Positions 27,198 to 37,046 of a stretch of 64,000 nt of DNA are shown here, one piece after another. Each line of letters starts with the position of its first letter. Position 1 is the stretch's first letter. The notes below the pieces were generated by a model. It made no database searches. It was given only the letters and a program-made list of their open reading frames with translations, and was not told the origin of the DNA. A program made the translations under genes and the position numbers. Source of the stretch: an uncultured Kangiella sp. (GTDB lineage Bacteria; Pseudomonadota; Gammaproteobacteria; Enterobacterales; Kangiellaceae); assembly GCA_947503435.1 (NCBI GenBank), contig CANNDL010000001.1, forward strand, positions 209,469 to 273,468. Direction: 5' to 3'.

Positions 27198-28487
27198 ATG
27201 CAAGTTTCAGTTGAAACCAGCCAAGGTTTAGAAAGAATTTTAACAATAGATGTTCCTGCAGAGAACATTGACGGTGCAGTACAAAAGCGCTTACAAGATA
27301 TGGCGCGTAATGTGAAAATGAATGGCTTCCGTCCAGGTAAGGTGCCATTTAGTGTTGTTAAGAAGCGTTATGGCGCTTCAGTTCGTCAAGAAGTATTAGG
27401 CGAAGTAATGCAACGTCATTATTTTGAAGCTGTACAGCAAGAAAAATTAATGCCTGCAGGCTACCCTCAATTAGAGCTAGTAGAAAACACAGATGGCGAG
27501 AACCTTAAGTTCACTGCTAAATTTGAAATCTATCCTGAAGTTCAATTAACTGCATTTGATAAATTAGAGATTACTGCTAAGACTGCTGAAGTAACGGATA
27601 CTGATTTAGATGGCATGCTTGAAACATTGCAAGGTCAGCGTGCAACTTGGAAAGAAGTTAAGCGCAAATCTAAGAAAGGCGATCAAGTAGTAATCGACTT
27701 TACTGGTACCGTTGACGGTGAAGCATTTGCTGGTGGTGAAGCAAAAGAATTCCCGTTAGAGCTTGGTTCTGACAGCATGATCCCAGGCTTTGAAAAGCAA
27801 ATCATTGGCGCAAAAGCGGGTGAAGACGTGAGCGTTGAAGTTGCTTTCCCAGAAGACTATCACGTTGAAGAGTTGAAAGGTCAAGATGCCGTGTTTGCTA
27901 CTCACGTGCATACAGTCAATGCAAAAGAGTTACCTTCTTTAGAAGATTTAGCCGAAGCATTAGCAGCTGAAGATATTGATGCTTTAAAGTCTGATGTAAA
28001 AGACAATATGGAGCGTGAACTTCGTAACGCTTTAAAAGCTCAAGTAAAAGGCCAGGTAATGGACAAGTTAGTTGAGTCTCATGAGTTTGACGTTCCAAAA
28101 GCAATGATTGATCAAGAAATCGATCGTATGCGTCAAGAGATGTTACAGCAAATGCGTGCTCCACAGGGTGCCGACACTCCGGACTTACCTGCAGATTTAT
28201 TTGAAGAACAAGCAAACCGCCGTGTGACTTTAGGTTTGGTTGTTGCTGAAATTATTAAAAGCGAAGAGTTAAAAGCGGACGAAGAAAAAGTACGCGCTCA
28301 AGTTGAAGAGTTAGCAGCTGTATACGAACAACCACAAGAAGTCATCGACTGGTATTATGGCGACCCTCAACGTTTACGTGAAGTTGAATCATTAGTACTT
28401 GAAGATACAGTGGTTGACTTGGTGCTAGAAAAAGCTAAAGTATCGGAAGAGTCTGTAAAGTTTGATGACATTATGAATAAAAAGTAA
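27198..28487 (+). CDS. tig: Trigger factor
   Basis: 429 residues, a ribosome-bound chaperone and prolyl isomerase. The ribosome-binding signature GFRPGKVPFSVVKKRYG is near residues 44-60. The FKBP-type domain lies at about 155-245 (GDQVVIDFTGTVDGEAFAGGEAKEFPLELGSDSMIPGFE), followed by the helical arm domain. ATG at 27198 with ACGGAG upstream. It starts the conserved tig-clpP-clpX-lon-hupB-ppiD quality-control cluster and has its own terminator before clpP. Confidence 0.97.
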   Translation: MQVSVETSQGLERILTIDVPAENIDGAVQKRLQDMARNVKMNGFRPGKVPFSVVKKRYGASVRQEVLGEVMQRHYFEAVQQEKLMPAGYPQLELVENTDGENLKFTAKFEIYPEVQLTAFDKLEITAKTAEVTDTDLDGMLETLQGQRATWKEVKRKSKKGDQVVIDFTGTVDGEAFAGGEAKEFPLELGSDSMIPGFEKQIIGAKAGEDVSVEVAFPEDYHVEELKGQDAVFATHVHTVNAKELPSLEDLAEALAAEDIDALKSDVKDNMERELRNALKAQVKGQVMDKLVESHEFDVPKAMIDQEIDRMRQEMLQQMRAPQGADTPDLPADLFEEQANRRVTLGLVVAEIIKSEELKADEEKVRAQVEELAAVYEQPQEVIDWYYGDPQRLREVESLVLEDTVVDLVLEKAKVSEESVKFDDIMNKK

Positions 28488-28508
28488 TTCATAGCGTCAG
28501 TAGAATTA

Positions 28509-28535
28509 AAAAGCGGGCTAAGGCTCGCTTTTTTT
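28509..28535 (+). terminator. Terminator of tig
   Basis: 10-bp stem AAAAGCGGGC / GCTCGCTTTT (one G-T pair), 4-nt loop, T-run to 28535. Confidence 0.85.
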
Positions 28536-28579
28536 ATGAGTATTAAAAATATAAAAGAAAGTACCCAAAAGGATAATGC

Positions 28580-29227
28580 ATGAACAACCCCAAAAATCCT
28601 ATTATTACTAATCAAGAGTCAATTGTTACCGACCCATATGCTGGCGGTTTGATTCCGATGGTAGTTGAGCAAACCTCTCGTGGTGAGCGCTCATATGATA
28701 TTTATTCGCGTTTATTAAAAGAACGCGTCATTTTCTTAGTAGGCCCTGTAGAAGATTATATGGCCAATTCAGTCGTCGCTCAGATGCTATTTTTAGAGTC
28801 AGAGAATCCTGAGAAAGATATTTATTTGTATATCAATTCTCCAGGTGGTGTTGTGACAGCTGGGATGGCGATTTATGACACCATGCAGTTTATTAAGCCT
28901 GATGTCAGCACGGTTTGTATTGGTCAAGCGGCCAGTATGGGTGCCTTCTTATTAACTGGTGGTGCAAAAGGTAAGCGTCATTGTTTGCCAAATTCTCGTA
29001 TGATGATTCACCAACCATTAGGCGGATTCCAAGGGCAAGCGTCTGATTTTGAGATTCATGCAAAAGAAATTATTGACTTGAAAAAGCGTTTAAATGGAAT
29101 TATGGCCAACCATTGTGATCGTCCTATTGAAGATTTAGAGCGAGATACGGATCGTGATAATTTTATGACGGCTGAAGAAGCGGTAGAATATGGCCTAATT
29201 GATTCGGTTATTAATTCGCGAAAGTAA
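28580..29227 (+). CDS. clpP: ATP-dependent Clp protease proteolytic subunit ClpP
   Basis: 215 residues. Serine protease chamber subunit; the triad is Ser119 ([11 protein letters not shown]), His144 (MIHQPLGG) and Asp193 (TDRDNFM). The first 15-20 residues are probably a cleaved propeptide. AAAGGA lies upstream of the ATG. Normally clpX follows directly; here a terminator (29243) and two accessory genes separate clpP from clpX by about 4 kb, so the protease and its ATPase are transcribed apart. Confidence 0.97.
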
Positions 29228-29242
29228 AGTTTTATAAAGATT

Positions 29243-29269
29243 AAAAGCCTGTTTTTGCAGGCTTTTTTT
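29243..29269 (+). terminator. Terminator of clpP
   Basis: Stem AAAAGCCTG (29243-29251) / CAGGCTTTT (29258-29266), 6-nt loop, seven T in all. It ends the clpP transcript before the antiporter gene. Confidence 0.88.
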
Positions 29270-29386
29270 ATATCTGTTCCAAAAGCGGTTCAATGCTAAA
29301 TAATTTGTAACAAGTTTACAATTGAATTGTCCAATCTTAGAAGGTTTACTGCACCATATGCTTTCAACCTTGGGGACACCAAAAGC

Positions 29387-31009
29387 ATGGAAAAGCAATA
29401 TCGGCGGTTAAGTTTCATTGAGCGTTTAATTTCTCGTTTTGCTTGGGTAAAACCTGGTGAAGGAAGAAGCGTGTTGCTATTGTTTTTTGGTTTGTTTACC
29501 TTAATGTTCGCCTACTACTTGTTAAAAGTTATTCGCGATCCCTTGATTTTAAAAGATGGCACTGCGGAATTAAAAAGTTATACCACGGCGGCTCAAGCGG
29601 TGGTCTTGCTGTTCATCATTCCTTTCTTTACTCAATATTTTTATAAGTTTTCAAACGCTAAAGACAAAACTTTGTTCATTCGTAAAGTGGTGGTGATATT
29701 TGCCGGCTGCTTGTCAATTTTCGCTGTTGGCGTCGCTTTCAATTGGTCCATCAGTATTGCTTTTTATATTTGGTTAGGTGTTTTTAGCGTTATTTTAGTG
29801 TCGCTCTATTGGTCATTTTGTGCAGACTGCTTTAATGTCAAAAGCGGGCAGCGACTTTTTGCGATTATAGCCGTTGGCGGTTCAATCGGTGCTTGGTTTG
29901 GCGCTAAAGCTGCTGGTTGGTTATATCCTATTATTGGCGTATTGGGTCTTATATTTATATCTACAGTATTGTTATTGGCTTTAGCAACCATTATCAAAAT
30001 CAGCATGAAGTCCATACCAGAAGATGCAAAACCGATTGATAAGTATGAGAAAGAAGCGCAAAAAGCAGAATGGCACCGCGGATTTGAATTGATATTTAAA
30101 CGTAAATATTTATTGGCTATCGCAGTATTTATTACGTTATTAAATTGGATTAACTCAATGGGTGAGTATGTTTTAGCCAAGTTTGTTAAACAAGCAGTGG
30201 CTACTACGACAAAAGCTCCTGAATTGTTTATGACTGAGTTTTATTCCAATTATATTGGTTGGTTCACTTTAATAGGACTGGTACTTCAACTTTTTGTGGT
30301 GACCCGATTATTCCGATGGATTGGAGTGGGTACCTCAATTATGATTTTACCTTTTGTGATGATGATTAACTATGGCCTACTGTTCTTAATGCCCGTATTC
30401 ACTATCGCCAAATGGACTTTGATTGCCGAAAACAGTGTTAATTACTCAATCCAAAATACGAGTCGTCATGCTTTATTTTTGCCTATTCCTCGTGAAGAGA
30501 AGTACTTAAGCAAGAATGTTATCGAGGCTTTCTTTTATCGATTCGGAGATCTGTTATACGCTGCTACCGTATTTATTGGAGTAACCTATTTTGATTTAGG
30601 CATTAGTGGTTTTATTGCTTTTAACTTTATTATGGCCTTGGGGTTATTTGGAGTGGCGATGTATATTCGTAGTGCCAATCAAAAGCAGTTGGATGACTCT
30701 GAACCTAATTCACCTCCAGTACTACATAATCCTATGGAGCCGCAAGTAGTGTCATCAGGCGCTAGGACAGTATTAACTATTCCTGAAAATACCTTTGTAG
30801 ACCCTGATTTAGGAGACGCTATTCGTTATCGAATTGAGCCTATAAATGGTTCTTTACCAAGTTGGTGTCAGTTTGATTCGACAAACTTACGATTAAAATT
30901 AGAACCTCCAGTAGGCTATGTTTCATCAATCGATATTCGCTTAATAGCTTACGATTTTGATGGTCTGCAGGCTGATACAGAATTAAATATTCAAGTGGAG
31001 CAGCCTTAA
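29387..31009 (+). CDS. Tlc-type nucleotide antiporter-like membrane protein with cadherin-like C-terminal domain
   Basis: 540 residues from the ATG at 29387 (GGGGA about 10 nt upstream); a TTG at 29327 gives 20 more residues but has no ribosome-binding site. Residues about 1-435 form roughly 11-12 membrane helices with Tlc/NTT family features: WVKPGEGRSVLLLFFGLF, FAYYLLKVIRDPLI, SLYWSFCADCFNVKSGQRLF and IAVGGSIGAWFG. The Tlc family exchanges ATP/ADP or other nucleotides in obligate parasites and plastids, with less-studied relatives in free-living bacteria. Residues about 440-540 are a soluble beta-sandwich like CADG/putative-Ig (NSPPVL, IPENTFVDPDLGDAIRYRI, GSLPSWCQFD, IRLIAYDFDGLQADTELNIQV). 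I know of no described protein with this fusion. Convergent with the kinase-phosphatase gene 3 nt away. The transported substrate is not established. Confidence 0.75.
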   Translation: MEKQYRRLSFIERLISRFAWVKPGEGRSVLLLFFGLFTLMFAYYLLKVIRDPLILKDGTAELKSYTTAAQAVVLLFIIPFFTQYFYKFSNAKDKTLFIRKVVVIFAGCLSIFAVGVAFNWSISIAFYIWLGVFSVILVSLYWSFCADCFNVKSGQRLFAIIAVGGSIGAWFGAKAAGWLYPIIGVLGLIFISTVLLLALATIIKISMKSIPEDAKPIDKYEKEAQKAEWHRGFELIFKRKYLLAIAVFITLLNWINSMGEYVLAKFVKQAVATTTKAPELFMTEFYSNYIGWFTLIGLVLQLFVVTRLFRWIGVGTSIMILPFVMMINYGLLFLMPVFTIAKWTLIAENSVNYSIQNTSRHALFLPIPREEKYLSKNVIEAFFYRFGDLLYAATVFIGVTYFDLGISGFIAFNFIMALGLFGVAMYIRSANQKQLDDSEPNSPPVLHNPMEPQVVSSGARTVLTIPENTFVDPDLGDAIRYRIEPINGSLPSWCQFDSTNLRLKLEPPVGYVSSIDIRLIAYDFDGLQADTELNIQVEQP

Positions 31010-31023
31010 TAGTTAATTAAGGC
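31003..31023. repeat. Hairpin containing both stop codons of a convergent pair
   Basis: 8-bp arms GCCTTAAT (31003-31010) and ATTAAGGC (31016-31023), 5-nt loop. It spans the TAA of the antiporter gene (31007-31009) and the TAA of the lipoprotein gene (31013-31015). There is no T-run on either side. Confidence 0.5.
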
Positions 31024-32992
31024 GCTCTAGGATTAAATTTCTTCGTTTTAGGATGGAATCAATTTGTTTTCGATGAAGGTGTTTGCCCAGAGCTTTCTTC
31101 AAATTTTCCTTATCGAGTTTCAATAACATCTCTTTAAAGGCTGAAGATATATTATTTGGCGGCGTTAAGCGTTCTGATACCTCATTGTCATACTTTGGTA
31201 AGCTATTTTTTACTCTAAATGCCCGAGTATGATCTATCAGCCAAAGCTGCGCATCATCTTCCGTATAAAGTTCGTTGCCTGTATTTCGATCTTCGTTGTA
31301 AATAAGCCAATCGAATATTTGCATTAATTCTCGGCCCGACTCTTTAGTACAATAACCCTTAAGTTTGCGCTTTTCTTCGATTAGTTGGGTGTTACTCACT
31401 GAGTCTTCTACCCAATACTGTAAAATTCCGTCTTTGCCGTCATGCTTGTATTCCATAACAAACGGAACCATATTTAATCCTAATAATCGGTCTAGTTTGT
31501 AAGCAGCTAAATCATAAATATATCTATCCGCAAAATTACCAGCTTTACCCCAACGCTTATCTTCAAGCTTCTTATCGGTATCTAAGTATTTAAAGATGGC
31601 TCTATGTTGCTTGCCATTCAAATCGAATGTTAAACGGATTGGATTGGTATAAAAGTCGCCTAACTCTTTCTGGGCGGTTACTTTTGCGTTTTGGTAATAA
31701 TTGATTAGGTACTCGTCGGTAAAGCCGTTAGGACTAACTGGCTTACGCACGGGATCAACCATTGGCTGCTTGTTTTGATCGTCATTAATATTGAGGACTT
31801 TCAATTGATTATTAGTAATGTCGACTACACTAGGATTTCCTTTGTAATAAGCCTGTGACATACCAGTATCTAGCATAATGACTTTGCCACCAAAGCGTGA
31901 ACGAACCTGTAAGCTATCGTCAGGTGTGTGACCTAGGAATATTTGGTTGGCGTTAAAATAATTTAAAACCTCATTGACGGTATTTTCCTCTGAGTATTCG
32001 TGACAGTACATATTGCCGCGATACCAAGTAGGGCCAAAGGAGCTGAAAAGCAATGAGTCGGCTAACTTAACAAACTTCTTTGCCTTTTTTATAGTCGAAC
32101 GTTTCTTTAATGCGCGGCTTTGTATTTTGCCATCTACCAGTGCTTGGGCAACATCGCGTTGTTCGTACTTGCTAAAATAGTATTTAAATAGTCCTGCATC
32201 GATCAACTCACGCCACAGGCGACTGTACTCTTCTAGATCTTGTAATAATTGAGCATTAATCTCCTCAACGTTTTTATTGGTTCTAGGTAGTTCTTGAGAA
32301 AAGCCACCATGGGCAAATAGTTTATTTTGAATTTTTAAGATTATATTTTTTTTAAGCAGCCACTGCCCGTACTTCCCATCAGGTGCATAAGCATTAATGT
32401 GGCCGAAAAAACCTGGCGGATACAGCTTATTAAATTTAGCTAAACTCTCTTCGGTATCATCCTTCTTTGAATATCGTAAATAATCTTCATAAACTTCTTT
32501 TCTTAATTCCTTTGGTTCATCGCCTGCGAAAGCTGCAAACTCGGCTTTTGAGACGTATCGCAAATCTCCTCGAATATTCATGACTTCATGATTACCTAAA
32601 GCCATTTCAAACGCGCCACCAGCTTCTTTAGCTTGTTGTTCTAGCAGCATGTAAAAATCTAGAATTTGTCTTGAGTCTGGGCCTCTATCAATTAAGTCGC
32701 CAAGACTAACTAAAATTCTATTCCCCGCCATCCAATTGCCATCATCATCGATGATTTGAGCTTTTTTTAATAGCTTAAACATGGTTGCAAAATCACCATG
32801 TACGTCAGCTATCACCGTTATTGGTCGAGTACCGATTTGGTCAGGGTTATTTGTATCAACCTTGCTCGCACTAATAGTAGTTAAATTAATTGATTGCTCT
32901 TTGGCTGTAGAGGCGCAAGAGGTGAGGGTAGCAGCAGCGACTGTGGTGAATAAAGTAGTCCCTAACGAAACCACCCGAAGTTTAGTAAACAT
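31013..32992 (-). CDS. Exported lipoprotein fusing a PPP/ApaH-type metallophosphatase to a FAM20/PI4K/HipA-like kinase domain
   Basis: 659 residues. A lipoprotein signal peptide ends in lipobox L23-T-S-C26, with Ala at +2, so outer-membrane sorting is expected. Residues about 57-390 are a calcineurin-like/PPP metallophosphatase: D63-V-H65-G-D, G98-D-L-I-D-R-G104, G133-N-H-E136, later AHGGFS and FLGHTPDD. Residues about 440-659 look like an atypical kinase: Lys468 in AIFKYL (nucleotide lysine), the catalytic-loop pattern F560-D-W-L-I-Y-N-E-D568-R-N-x2-N573, and the metal-binding Asp587 in LIDHTRAF. That pairing is known from FAM20 secretory kinases, PI4-kinases and HipA-like proteins. The product would be an extracytoplasmic enzyme able both to add and remove phosphate. 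Family calls are by eye; the kinase half could instead be a lipid kinase or a pseudokinase. Confidence 0.75.
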   Translation of the reverse strand: MFTKLRVVSLGTTLFTTVAAATLTSCASTAKEQSINLTTISASKVDTNNPDQIGTRPITVIADVHGDFATMFKLLKKAQIIDDDGNWMAGNRILVSLGDLIDRGPDSRQILDFYMLLEQQAKEAGGAFEMALGNHEVMNIRGDLRYVSKAEFAAFAGDEPKELRKEVYEDYLRYSKKDDTEESLAKFNKLYPPGFFGHINAYAPDGKYGQWLLKKNIILKIQNKLFAHGGFSQELPRTNKNVEEINAQLLQDLEEYSRLWRELIDAGLFKYYFSKYEQRDVAQALVDGKIQSRALKKRSTIKKAKKFVKLADSLLFSSFGPTWYRGNMYCHEYSEENTVNEVLNYFNANQIFLGHTPDDSLQVRSRFGGKVIMLDTGMSQAYYKGNPSVVDITNNQLKVLNINDDQNKQPMVDPVRKPVSPNGFTDEYLINYYQNAKVTAQKELGDFYTNPIRLTFDLNGKQHRAIFKYLDTDKKLEDKRWGKAGNFADRYIYDLAAYKLDRLLGLNMVPFVMEYKHDGKDGILQYWVEDSVSNTQLIEEKRKLKGYCTKESGRELMQIFDWLIYNEDRNTGNELYTEDDAQLWLIDHTRAFRVKNSLPKYDNEVSERLTPPNNISSAFKEMLLKLDKENLKKALGKHLHRKQIDSILKRRNLILERLN

Positions 32993-33174
32993 GAATCACT
33001 CCTTATGACTCTAATAGCTCAAAATTAGCATACTTTACAGAACGGCAGAAGCATAAAAAGATTCAAGTTGTTTCAGATTTGAGCAGATTTACTGAAAATT
33101 TACGCTATGGGCAGTATTTTTCTTTTGTTGCCCTCTAGATTTTGTTAATGTTATCTCATATAGAAAGAAATAAT

Positions 33175-33200
33175 TTGAAGGTTTAGGATTGATCCCCATT
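33175..33200 (+). promoter_or_regulatory. Heat-shock (sigma-32) promoter of clpX
   Basis: TTGAA (33175-33179), 14-bp spacer, CCCCATT (33194-33200). This agrees well with the sigma-32 consensus CTTGAA-N13-17-CCCCATnT. It lies 41 nt upstream of the clpX start and gives clpX its own heat-inducible transcription, needed because clpX is detached from clpP here. Confidence 0.7.
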
Positions 33201-33240
33201 ATGAGGTATTAATCGTAAGTCCAACTAGACTGAGGGTCTG

Positions 33241-34506
33241 ATGAGCGACAATTCTGATAAAAAAACACTCTATTGTTCATTTTGTGGAAAGAGTCAGCAT
33301 GAAGTTAAAAAACTAATTGCTGGTCCCCGCGTATTTATCTGTAATGAATGCGTGGATTTATGTAATGACATCATTATAGAAGAAGTTAAAGATATTGCCG
33401 CGAGCAGTAATTCTCGTGATTTACCATCGCCGAAAGAGATAAGTGACTTTCTAGAAGAATACGTTATCGGTCAAGATCGTGCTAAAAAAGTACTTTCAGT
33501 AGCTGTATATAATCATTATAAACGCTTGGAAAATGAGCCGAATTCTTCTGAAAACCAAGAAGTTGAATTAGGCAAAAGTAATATTCTTTTAATAGGCCCC
33601 ACTGGTTCTGGTAAAACGTTATTAGCAGAAACTTTGGCCCGTATGTTAGAAGTGCCATTCACTATGGCTGATGCGACGACGCTAACCGAAGCAGGTTATG
33701 TTGGTGAAGACGTTGAAAACATTATTCAGAAGCTTTTGCAAAAATGCGATTACGATGTTGAAAAAGCTCAACGGGGTATCGTATACATTGATGAAATTGA
33801 TAAAATTTCTCGCAAGTCTGATAATCCATCAATTACCCGAGACGTTTCTGGCGAGGGAGTGCAACAAGCTTTACTGAAGTTAATCGAAGGTACAGTGGCT
33901 TCGGTTCCTCCTCAAGGTGGCCGAAAACACCCACAGCAAGAGTTTTTGCAAGTAGATACCAGTAACATTTTATTTGTTTGCGGTGGCGCATTTGCAGGTG
34001 TTGAAAAAATCATTCAAGAACGCACTGAAAAGGGCGGTATTGGTTTTGGTGCAGATGTAAAAGAAACTCATGATGGCAAAGCAATTGGTGAGATGCTAAA
34101 GAATATTGAGCCGGATGACTTAGTAAAGTTTGGTTTAATTCCAGAGTTTATAGGCCGTTTACCAATTGTAGCAACTCTTCAAGAGCTAGATGAGCATGCT
34201 TTAGTCAGGATTTTAACTGAGCCGAAGAATGCATTAACTAAGCAATACAATAAATTACTGATGCTTGAAAACGTAGAACTAGAATTTCGCAAAGATGCAT
34301 TGCAAGCAATCGCTAAAAAAGCAATGCAACGTAGAACGGGAGCCCGTGGTTTACGATCTATCCTTGAAGAAATTTTATTAGACACCATGTATGAATTACC
34401 TTCGCTAGAAAATGTTAGCAAGGTGTGTATTGATGCAGCGGTAGTAAAAGGTGAGGCTGAGCCTTTATTGATTTATGATTCTCAGGTAAAAGCAGCTTCA
34501 GAATAA
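33241..34506 (+). CDS. clpX: ATP-dependent Clp protease ATP-binding subunit ClpX
   Basis: 421 residues. The N-terminal zinc domain has Cys12, Cys15, Cys34 and Cys37. The AAA+ core has Walker A GPTGSGKT, Walker [12 protein letters not shown], the GYVGEDVE pore loop, and the IGF-type loop [10 protein letters not shown] that docks on ClpP. It unfolds substrates for ClpP. It has its own sigma-32-like promoter; no terminator with a T-run follows, so lon may be partly read from it, though a GC-rich hairpin lies at 34535-34553. Confidence 0.97.
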
Positions 34507-34534
34507 CTTTTCTATTAGCATCAATCTCTTAAAC

Positions 34535-34553
34535 AGGGCTCATCCTGAGCCCT
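34535..34553 (+). terminator. Hairpin between clpX and lon
   Basis: Perfect 8-bp arms AGGGCTCA (34535-34542) / TGAGCCCT (34546-34553), loop TCC. The stem is strong but not followed by T, so it may be a weak terminator, a pause site or an mRNA-stabilising hairpin. A TATAGT-like -10 for lon lies at about 34579. Confidence 0.45.
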
Positions 34554-34616
34554 AATGAATGCTGTAATAATTATTAACTATAGTAGGTTAATAAAAAGAA
34601 CCAGGATAAAAGCTCA

Positions 34617-37046
34617 ATGCAAAGCGATACTCAAGAAACAATTGTAGAAACTCATAATAAGCAACTACCTTTATTGCCACTAAGAGATGTGGTGGTGTTT
34701 CCTCATATGGTTATACCCCTATTTGTCGGACGTGAAAAATCCATATTGGCTTTAGAAGAAGCGACAAATGGCGATAAGCAGGTCATGCTAGTGGCGCAAA
34801 AAGAAGCGTCGGAAGATATGCCAGAGCCAGATCAAATTTTTGATTATGGTTGTGTTGCGACCATCTTGCAGATGCTTAAACTACCTGACGGTAATGTAAA
34901 AGTATTAGTGGAAGGTGTGCAGCGTGCGAAAGTAGTTCAATATACAGAAACTGAACCGATGTACGTGGCAGAAGTTGAGACAGTAGCTAATGTATCACTT
35001 AATCCTTCAGAAGAAGATGGTTTGGCCCGTGCAGCACTGTCTAATTTTGATAAATACGTAAAGCTGAATAAAAAAGTTCCAAGCGAAATCTTAACTTCGC
35101 TTTCGGGTATCGATGAGCCAAGCCGTTTAGCCGATAGCATAGCAGCCCATATGGCACTCAATATTCAGGATAAGCAACAAATCCTAGAAATGCATAATAC
35201 TTCGGAGCGTCTTGAGCACTTGATGAGCAAGATGGAAGGCGAAATGGAGCTGTTGCAAGTTGAAAAGCGGATTCGTAGTCGCGTTAAGAATCAAATGGAA
35301 AAGAATCAACGCGAATATTATTTGAATGAGCAGATTAAAGCTATTCAAAAAGAACTTGGCGAAGGTGAAGAAACTGCTTCTGAACACGAAGAGATAGAAA
35401 AGAAAATTAGTGAATCGGGCATGACCAAGGAAGCTAAGGAAAAAGCCGAAGCCGAATTGAAAAAATTAAAGATGATGTCACCTATGTCAGCGGAAGCTAC
35501 GGTTGTCCGTGGTTATATAGATTGGTTATTAGGAGTACCTTGGAAGAAGCGCTCCAAAGTTAAACACAACTTATCTAACGCTGAAGACACCTTGAATGCA
35601 GATCATTATGGTTTGGAAAAAGTTAAAGAACGTATTTTGGAGTATCTCGCGGTTCAACAGCGTGTGAAAAAGTTGAAAGGGCCAGTGTTGTGTTTAGTGG
35701 GGCCTCCGGGCGTGGGTAAAACCTCATTGGGTCAATCCATCGCTAAAGCCACTGGTCGTAAGTACGTTCGCATGGCCTTAGGCGGTGTACGAGATGAAGC
35801 TGAAATAAGAGGGCATAGACGAACTTACATTGGCGCCATGCCGGGTAAGATTATGCAGAAGATGAGCAAATCTACAGTTAAGAATCCATTATTCTTGTTA
35901 GATGAAATTGATAAGATGGCAATGGATATGCGTGGTGATCCTTCTTCAGCTTTACTAGAAGTGCTAGACCCTGAGCAAAACCATACTTTTAACGATCATT
36001 ATTTGGAAGTGGATTATGATTTGTCAGAAGTGATGTTTATCGCTACTTCAAATTCCATGAATATCCCAGCACCGTTGTTAGATCGGATGGAAGTCATTCG
36101 TATTCCAGGTTATACCGAAGATGAAAAAGTAGAAATTGCCACTCGTTATTTATTGCCTAAACAGATGAGTAATGCTGGTCTACGTGAGAATGAATTGCAA
36201 CTTTCAGAATCAGGTATCAGAAGTATTATTCGCTTCTATACTCGTGAATCAGGCGTGCGTAATTTAGAACGTGAGCTTGCAAAAATTTGCCGTAAAACGG
36301 TAAAAGAACAACTGCTTGCTAAGAAAGAAAAGAAAACTATTAAAGTCCATAAAGGTAATATCGATAAATACCTTGGTGTTCAACGATTTGATTATGGTAA
36401 AGCGGGCGACAACAACGAAGTTGGTCAAGTCACTGGTCTAGCCTGGACATCCGTAGGCGGTGAATTATTAACGATTGAGTCTGTTATTGTCGATGGTAAA
36501 GGTAAAACTAGTTTTACAGGTCAACTTGGCGATGTGATGAAAGAGTCGATTCAAGCGGCAATGACTGTGGTAAGGAGCCGTTGTTTAGCGCTAGGTATTG
36601 AACCCGACTTTTATGAGAAGAAAGACATTCACGTCCACGTTCCAGAAGGCGCCACACCGAAAGACGGTCCTAGCGCAGGTATTGGCATGTGCACAGCATT
36701 AATTTCTAGCTTAACCAAAATACCCGTACGCAAAGATGTGGCTATGACGGGAGAAATTACTTTGCGCGGTGAAGTTTTGCCAATTGGCGGTTTAAAAGAA
36801 AAGTTATTAGCCGCTCATCGAGGTGGTATTAAAACCGTTATGATTCCAAAGGACAATGAGCGTGATCTAGCAGATATACCAGCTAACATTAAAAAAGATT
36901 TAGAAATAAATTGCGTGAAGTGGATCGATGAAGTTATTGATATTGCTTTGGAGCGTCCGCCAGAGCCAATTAGTCGAACCGATGAAAGTAAACCTAAGGC
37001 TGCTACTAAGAAGTCTAGCAAGTCTGAGGATATCCATCCTCACTAG
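34617..37046 (+). CDS. lon: ATP-dependent protease La
   Basis: 809 residues, a soluble LonA. N-terminal substrate domain ([19 protein letters not shown]), AAA+ module with Walker A GPPGVGKT and the long conserved [24 protein letters not shown] region, and a protease domain with the Ser-Lys dyad Ser686 ([10 protein letters not shown]) and Lys729 (GGLKEK). The extra Lys/Ser-rich tail after residue 785 ([19 protein letters not shown]) is slightly longer than in E. coli (784). Degrades misfolded and short-lived proteins. It lies 110 bp after clpX and is followed by hupB, the standard order. Confidence 0.97.

Follow-up and report, generated by a model that had tools for sequence, protein, structure and literature searches.

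The window, a stretch of 64,000 nucleotides from an uncultured Kangiella sp. (contig CANNDL010000001.1), carries two convergent genes whose stop codons are separated by 3 bp (Table 1). One encodes a predicted exported fusion of a PPP-type phosphatase and a FAM20/PI4K-like kinase, here called KP, with K for its kinase part and P for its phosphatase part. The other, T, encodes a neighbouring transporter of the NTT family, whose start codon we read from the sequence. An earlier note on this DNA had drawn attention to the fusion, and the open reading frame it gave was exact at both ends. The two genes sit between clpP and clpX (27198-37046), which are usually adjacent, and they occupy the same site in the Kangiella relatives checked, where the genes run tig, clpP, T, KP, clpX, lon, again with T and KP convergent.

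Table 1 Features of the KP and T genes in the window
Feature	Coordinates	Strand	Remarks
T, 12-helix NTT (ATP/ADP translocase) family transporter	29387..31009	+	540 aa, likely ATG start at 29387
C-terminal Ig-like (He_PIG) domain of T	30713..30997	+	PF05345, 1.6e-6
KP, predicted exported PPP phosphatase-FAM20-like kinase fusion	31013..32992	-	659 aa, ATG start
FAM20/PI4K-like kinase domain of KP, residues 425-659	31016..31720	-	K468, D568, N573, D587
PPP-type phosphatase domain of KP, residues 57-400 (approximate boundary)	31793..32824	-	Pfam, PDB, Foldseek, motifs
Putative signal peptide of KP with lipobox LTSC, Cys26	32915..32992	-	Read from sequence

The N-terminal half of KP is a complete phosphatase domain of the PPP type. 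Pfam Metallophos (PF00149) matches residues 57-357 at E 4.6e-13 (50.5 bits against a cut-off of 21.5), and the DxH, GDxxDRG, GNHE, HGG and GHT motifs are all there, with DVHGD at 63-67, GDLIDRG at 98-104, GNHE at 133-136 and GHTPDD from 354, as previously located. The nearest solved proteins are the cold-active phosphatases of Shewanella (2z72, 1.7e-39), and a Foldseek search with the KP structure model retrieved 1v73 at 3.2e-19. These enzymes (1v73, 2z72, 2zbm) are also of the PPP type, but they are stand-alone proteins of ~340 residues with no kinase half. AceK and bacterial Pnkp do hold opposed kinase and phosphatase activities within single chains, an arrangement that KP would share, and the NCBIfam Pnkp model matches the phosphatase half weakly (1.4e-6); however, AceK and Pnkp are cytosolic and their kinase folds are of other kinds. 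Relatives of the phosphatase on plasmids were sought among 72,556 records, of which two matched, neither covering 80 percent of the query.

The C-terminal half, searched alone, stays below the Pfam cut-offs of three related families: HipA_2 (PF20613; 5.8e-6, 26.2 bits against 27), Fam20C (PF06702; 2.9e-4, 21.0 bits against 26.8) and PI3_PI4_kinase (PF00454; 9e-4, 19.7 bits against 27.1). We also built a profile from an alignment, A3, of 26 relatives picked as active-looking. Among these members, 19 match PF00454, 18 match PF20613 and, at E 0.1, 14 match PF06702, while TIGR03843 (the SCO1664 family) matches all 26, at best with 1.4e-15; the window kinase itself reaches 41 bits against a cut-off of 172.4. 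When compared with solved structures, the A3 profile finds FAM20B (1.2e-11), FAM20A (2.2e-10), FAM20C (1.3e-8) and a nematode FAM20 (9e-6), with PI4-kinases at 0.15 and above and no HipA structure among the PDB matches at E 10. We also considered a HipA toxin-antitoxin system and rejected it: the kinase half lies below the HipA_2 cut-off, carries an export signal in its chain, and has T and clpX as neighbours.

The likeness to FAM20A/B/C (PF06702), which act outside the cytosol as the KP kinase is predicted to do, extends to an AA[YF]xLDRLLG region of the N-lobe, to the DR of the catalytic loop and to a later Asp followed by Phe, all of which align. K468 is aligned with the FK lysine of FAM20, D568 with the DRH-loop Asp and D587 with this later Asp. 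Unlike the FAM20 proteins, the window kinase is bacterial, has half their length or less, falls under the Pfam cut-off, is fused to a phosphatase and is paired with a transporter; its loop reads DRNTGN, with Asn where the DRHHYE of FAM20 has Glu. With the PI3/PI4 and HipA_2-like kinases it shares the DRxxxN loop and the fold, and PI4KII is among its best Foldseek matches, but its predicted export and its scores under both Pfam cut-offs set it apart. In the accessible part of PMC9758233, FAM20 clusters are termed eukaryotic or Metazoa-specific. The accessible text of PMC5865150, a structure paper on FAM20 evolution, has no occurrence of the string 'bacteri', and that of PMC7948968 has a single 'bacteria', in its reference list.

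K468, D568, N573 and D587 were all found at the residue numbers previously assigned to them. The last three are invariant within A3, whose members were chosen as active-looking, and among 76 distinct kinase ORFs this triad is intact in 58 and broken in 18. R569 is not invariant, and neither is Lys468, although the earlier note had placed it correctly in KP: in the 58 triad-intact kinases its column holds K in 39, Q in 14, R in 4 and a gap in one. Other members of the kinase fold catalyse AMPylation or glutamylation (e.g. SidJ), and the kinase-like half of KP might likewise perform another transfer, or might merely bind a nucleotide. SidJ is named in the reference list found in the accessible part of PMC7948968. 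The glutamines at the Lys468 column and the 18 broken triads would suit such a role; the retention of the D-N-D triad in most kinase ORFs, and the loss of T that accompanies its loss (see below), argue against it, and we regard it as improbable.

The combination of the two domains in one chain, the central claim of the earlier note, is supported by Pfam, by the profile and by structure prediction. The AlphaFold model of KP is confident (pLDDT 90.2, pTM 0.88). Its best Foldseek matches are the Shewanella phosphatases, and PI4KII-beta (2.7e-7) and DrFam20C1 (3.3e-7) come within the first eight; Foldseek output gives no aligned region, and the assignment of these matches to one or the other half of KP is presumptive. 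By motif, both active sites look intact. Both domains occur together in 42 distinct fused ORFs from Gammaproteobacteria and Acidobacteriota, and the fusion is not a product of chance. Chance assembly of the motifs was a candidate that we rejected on these 42 ORFs together with the confident model.

Export, also proposed before, is likewise a common predicted trait of the relatives. A crude criterion, positive charge followed by a hydrophobic stretch, detects a signal-peptide-like N-terminus on 41 of 42 fused ORFs, on 24 of 28 that have the phosphatase only and on 33 of 34 that have the kinase only; the sole kinase-only miss and one of the phosphatase-only misses are fragments. Since such starts are found on fused and split ORFs, kinase and phosphatase would be exported in either form. 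The claim that KP is a lipoprotein holds for the window more than for the family: LTSC is present at residues 23-26 of KP, but a lipobox-like motif occurs in only 5 of the 42 fused ORFs and is missing from the other 37. Besides leaving by its signal peptide, KP is probably lipid-anchored in the window's species, and we rejected lipid anchoring as a defining trait of the KP family.

T belongs with the NTT translocases (PF03219) by sequence profile and by fold. A profile of 24 T relatives finds Chlamydia pneumoniae NTT1 (9j3n, 4e-26) and Arabidopsis NTT1 (9j3j, 1.9e-17) in the PDB, and with the T model (pLDDT 84.5, low-confidence in the Ig-like tail) the first four PDB matches of Foldseek are NTT structures, other major-facilitator proteins coming next. 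Window T alone gives no match to Pfam TLC (PF03219) at E 10 and none to any NCBIfam model; Pfam reports only MFS_1, below cut-off, and He_PIG. The TLC cut-off is exceeded by four of seven partner transporters of relatives (L009, L014, L015 and L025, not L070, L072 and L079). The last three also carry the Ig-like He_PIG tail, which in T would face the cytosol if both ends of the 12-helix bundle lie inside, an odd arrangement. A second, more distant NTT paralogue lies outside the window in the same genome (G000:C5:26714-27913), not beside a kinase match. Apart from NTTs, no family is known to exchange ATP and ADP across bacterial membranes. Certain charged residues on which plant NTT depends are conserved only in part in the alignment, read by eye, and for that reason the cargo of T may not be ATP/ADP.

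NTTs and NTT-HEAT fusions have been surveyed in free-living bacteria, where their roles were called unknown (PMC5381601, 2017); the words 'kinase' and 'periplasm' do not occur in the accessible part of that survey. Two acidobacterial partner transporters carry HEAT repeats, as those fusions do, whereas window T ends in an Ig-like domain and has no TLC match.

We analyzed how K and T are linked across 40 genomes from the Kangiellaceae, to which the window belongs, 34 of them at least 90 percent complete and none picked for NTT proximity. KP matches, phosphatase-only ones included, occur in 26 genomes and the two-domain protein in 21, of which 17 have an intact kinase triad in at least one copy. 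In every one of these 17, the fusion has a close T copy, at E 1e-156 or better, as its direct neighbour. Close T copies were found in none of the four genomes with only degenerate kinases (G024, G025, G030, G031) and in none of the 19 genomes of this sample without the fusion. The association of T with an intact kinase is significant by a Fisher test not corrected for kinship (p 1.1e-11). Many of the 40 genomes also carry a more distant NTT paralogue (~1e-60), which does not stand beside KP. Three loci with a broken triad (L007, L082, L064) lack T and keep clpP, clpX, tig and lon, with clpP directly after KP; L005 also lacks T, and its clpP side differs. When 369 genomes sampled at class level were searched with the kinase profile, it retrieved the window, two genomes whose kinases are degenerate (G206 and G371) and two weak matches.

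This pattern bears on whether T and KP might instead serve import. T could take up outside nucleotides, with KP acting as an ecto-phosphatase on nucleotides or phosphorylated nutrients, and its kinase half serving as a regulator or ATP sensor and not as a kinase that uses a phosphate donor. The characterised NTTs described in the accessible part of PMC5381601 are all importers, in parasites or plastids, and phosphatase-only relatives with neither K nor T are common. A salvage role would, however, tie T to the phosphatase; T stays with the intact triad and is absent upon triad loss even where the phosphatase is intact, which counts against import and leads us to consider it unlikely.

A phosphatase tree was built from 57 loci of a table of 70 rows, part of the loci having been chosen for a nearby NTT; the 13 rows left out had short flanks, were fragments, were second or dead-phosphatase copies, or had one contig cut. 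K and T are both present at 37 loci and both absent at 17, with K alone at two and T alone at one. Each changes at least ten times on the tree. Among seven independent pairs whose branches are supported, T follows K in a mean of 5.4 and opposes it in none (sign test, p only 0.03 to 0.125). The exceptions are active-looking kinases with no T nearby (L071, L096, and L074 at a contig end) and one T beside a non-intact kinase (L102).

The Acidobacteriota were sampled with 247 genomes, again not picked by NTT proximity. The kinase profile matches 49 of them at 1e-5 and 47 at 1e-20, and at least 99 carry an NTT at 1e-20. An NTT is present in all 47 genomes with a clear kinase, versus at least 52 of the 200 others, the triad having been read in a minority of these kinases; the two weak-kinase genomes (1e-8) have no NTT among the matches listed. 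Of the 130 clear kinase hits, at least 36, spread over 20 genomes, have an NTT within 5 kb, when 1.05 would be expected by chance, and the other 94 are not within 5 kb of any NTT among the matches listed. Twenty loci were fetched, about a dozen of them picked for a nearby NTT and thus not a random sample; 13 have an NTT in the stretch and seven have none. The order P-T-K is found in L014, L015, L017 and L023, P-K-T-K-K-K in L084, KP-T-K in L085 and KP-T-K-K in L086, and KP and T occur together, on the same strand or on opposite ones, in L012, L089, L091 and L099. In this phylum, phosphatase, NTT and kinase often cluster, fused or split. Genome G425 (L026) shows a kinase expansion, with 14 profile matches.

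The genomic and evolutionary linkage of kinase and transporter is strong. We also considered that K and T are adjacent merely because their loci descend from a common ancestor, and that they do not work together. In favour of this, the Fisher tests are not corrected for kinship and part of the loci were picked for a nearby NTT; but gene orders and orientations differ between lineages, losses are paired on the tree, and T is cleanly absent from otherwise collinear loci. We hold this explanation to be very improbable.

Copies also appear to divide the labour. Two tandem KP copies flank T in both L072 and L073. The first has all phosphatase motifs and a broken kinase triad, while the second has lost its phosphatase motifs and retains D-R-N-D. 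The first copies of the two loci group on the phosphatase tree with a support of 83, and therefore one duplication may explain both. L074 has another copy with a dead phosphatase and an intact kinase. Four loci (L084, L085, L086 and L088) have a kinase in which position 568 is Cys; it adjoins the phosphatase or is fused to it, and intact kinases are close by. These broken triads beside intact kinases recall the FAM20A pseudokinase with FAM20C.

Other neighbours of the modules were compared by clustering their ORFs. The clusters are mostly antisense shadows, together with DUF5666-like secreted, cNMP-binding and partner-switch proteins, and no conserved substrate gene was seen beside the module in both phyla. 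A small secreted protein, weakly DUF5666-like in one copy, lies beside split acidobacterial kinases (L013 478-906, L014 10001-10429, L015 5612-6025, L017 6924-7301, L026 7690-8088) and is a possible partner or substrate. Related proteins lie beside the module in L009 (5132-5866), L010 (5123-5818), L091 (6784-7272), L098 (42-458) and L099 (7916-8428). The module-adjacent protein of L099 is a cyclic-nucleotide-binding domain, which fits the NTT-HEAT-cNBD neighbours described in the accessible part of PMC5381601. Partner-switch type proteins (HATPase_c_2, STAS, and SpoIIE with FHA and GAF) occur near modules in L084, L016 and L025.

The earlier note had suggested that KP would be a self-contained phosphorylation switch. 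Its observation is confirmed, and its interpretation supported in part: the opposed domains do lie in one chain with an export signal, but the switch is probably not self-contained, because an NTT-family gene accompanies the intact kinase triad with few exceptions. The transporter makes the finding stronger than the note had stated.

Our model, which we somewhat favour over its negation, is of a phosphorylation module that works outside the cytoplasm and consists of KP and T. KP would leave the cytoplasm via its signal peptide. Its FAM20-like C-terminal half would phosphorylate an envelope protein or glycan, and its N-terminal PPP half would take the phosphate off again. T, as an inner-membrane antiporter of the NTT family, would move cytosolic ATP out in exchange for the ADP that results from the kinase reaction. 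If T supplies ATP in this way, the kinase of KP could act where ATP is otherwise scarce. We infer that both halves of KP are enzymatically active, that T carries ATP and does so outward, and what kind of target is modified; ATP/ADP exchange is the simplest account of an antiporter that tracks the intact kinase and not the phosphatase.

The target may differ from a protein. In a variant of this model, the kinase would be either a sugar kinase resembling FAM20B or a lipid kinase, acting outside the cytoplasm on a glycan or lipid from which the phosphatase trims the mark. Its best solved match is indeed the glycosaminoglycan xylosylkinase FAM20B, the fold is equally close to PI4KII, and a Kdo-kinase model matches 7 of the 26 kinases weakly (best 1.8e-5). 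The nearest solved phosphatase, in turn, is named a protein-tyrosine phosphatase, which speaks for a protein. We see this variant as quite possible, a little short of an even chance.

No characterised bacterial example of such a system was found in an open library of PMC papers, and the suggestion that the system is undescribed stands within that scope. Its parts are of known kinds, and its activities are predicted. More broadly, we give an even chance to the proposal that bacteria have a three-part extracytoplasmic system, in which a FAM20-related kinase and a PPP phosphatase work against each other, often as parts of one exported protein, and a dedicated ATP/ADP antiporter supplies the compartment with energy.

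An extracytoplasmic kinase needs a source of ATP, and the companion NTT-family gene could explain the supply. The finding points, by sequence relationship, to bacterial relatives of the animal secretory kinases. If the proposal is true, it would describe a bacterial counterpart of Golgi phosphorylation and give a function to the NTTs of free-living bacteria. K and T appear and vanish together, which makes the role of NTTs in free-living bacteria directly testable, and likewise the existence of reversible, ATP-dependent phosphorylation in Gram-negative envelopes.
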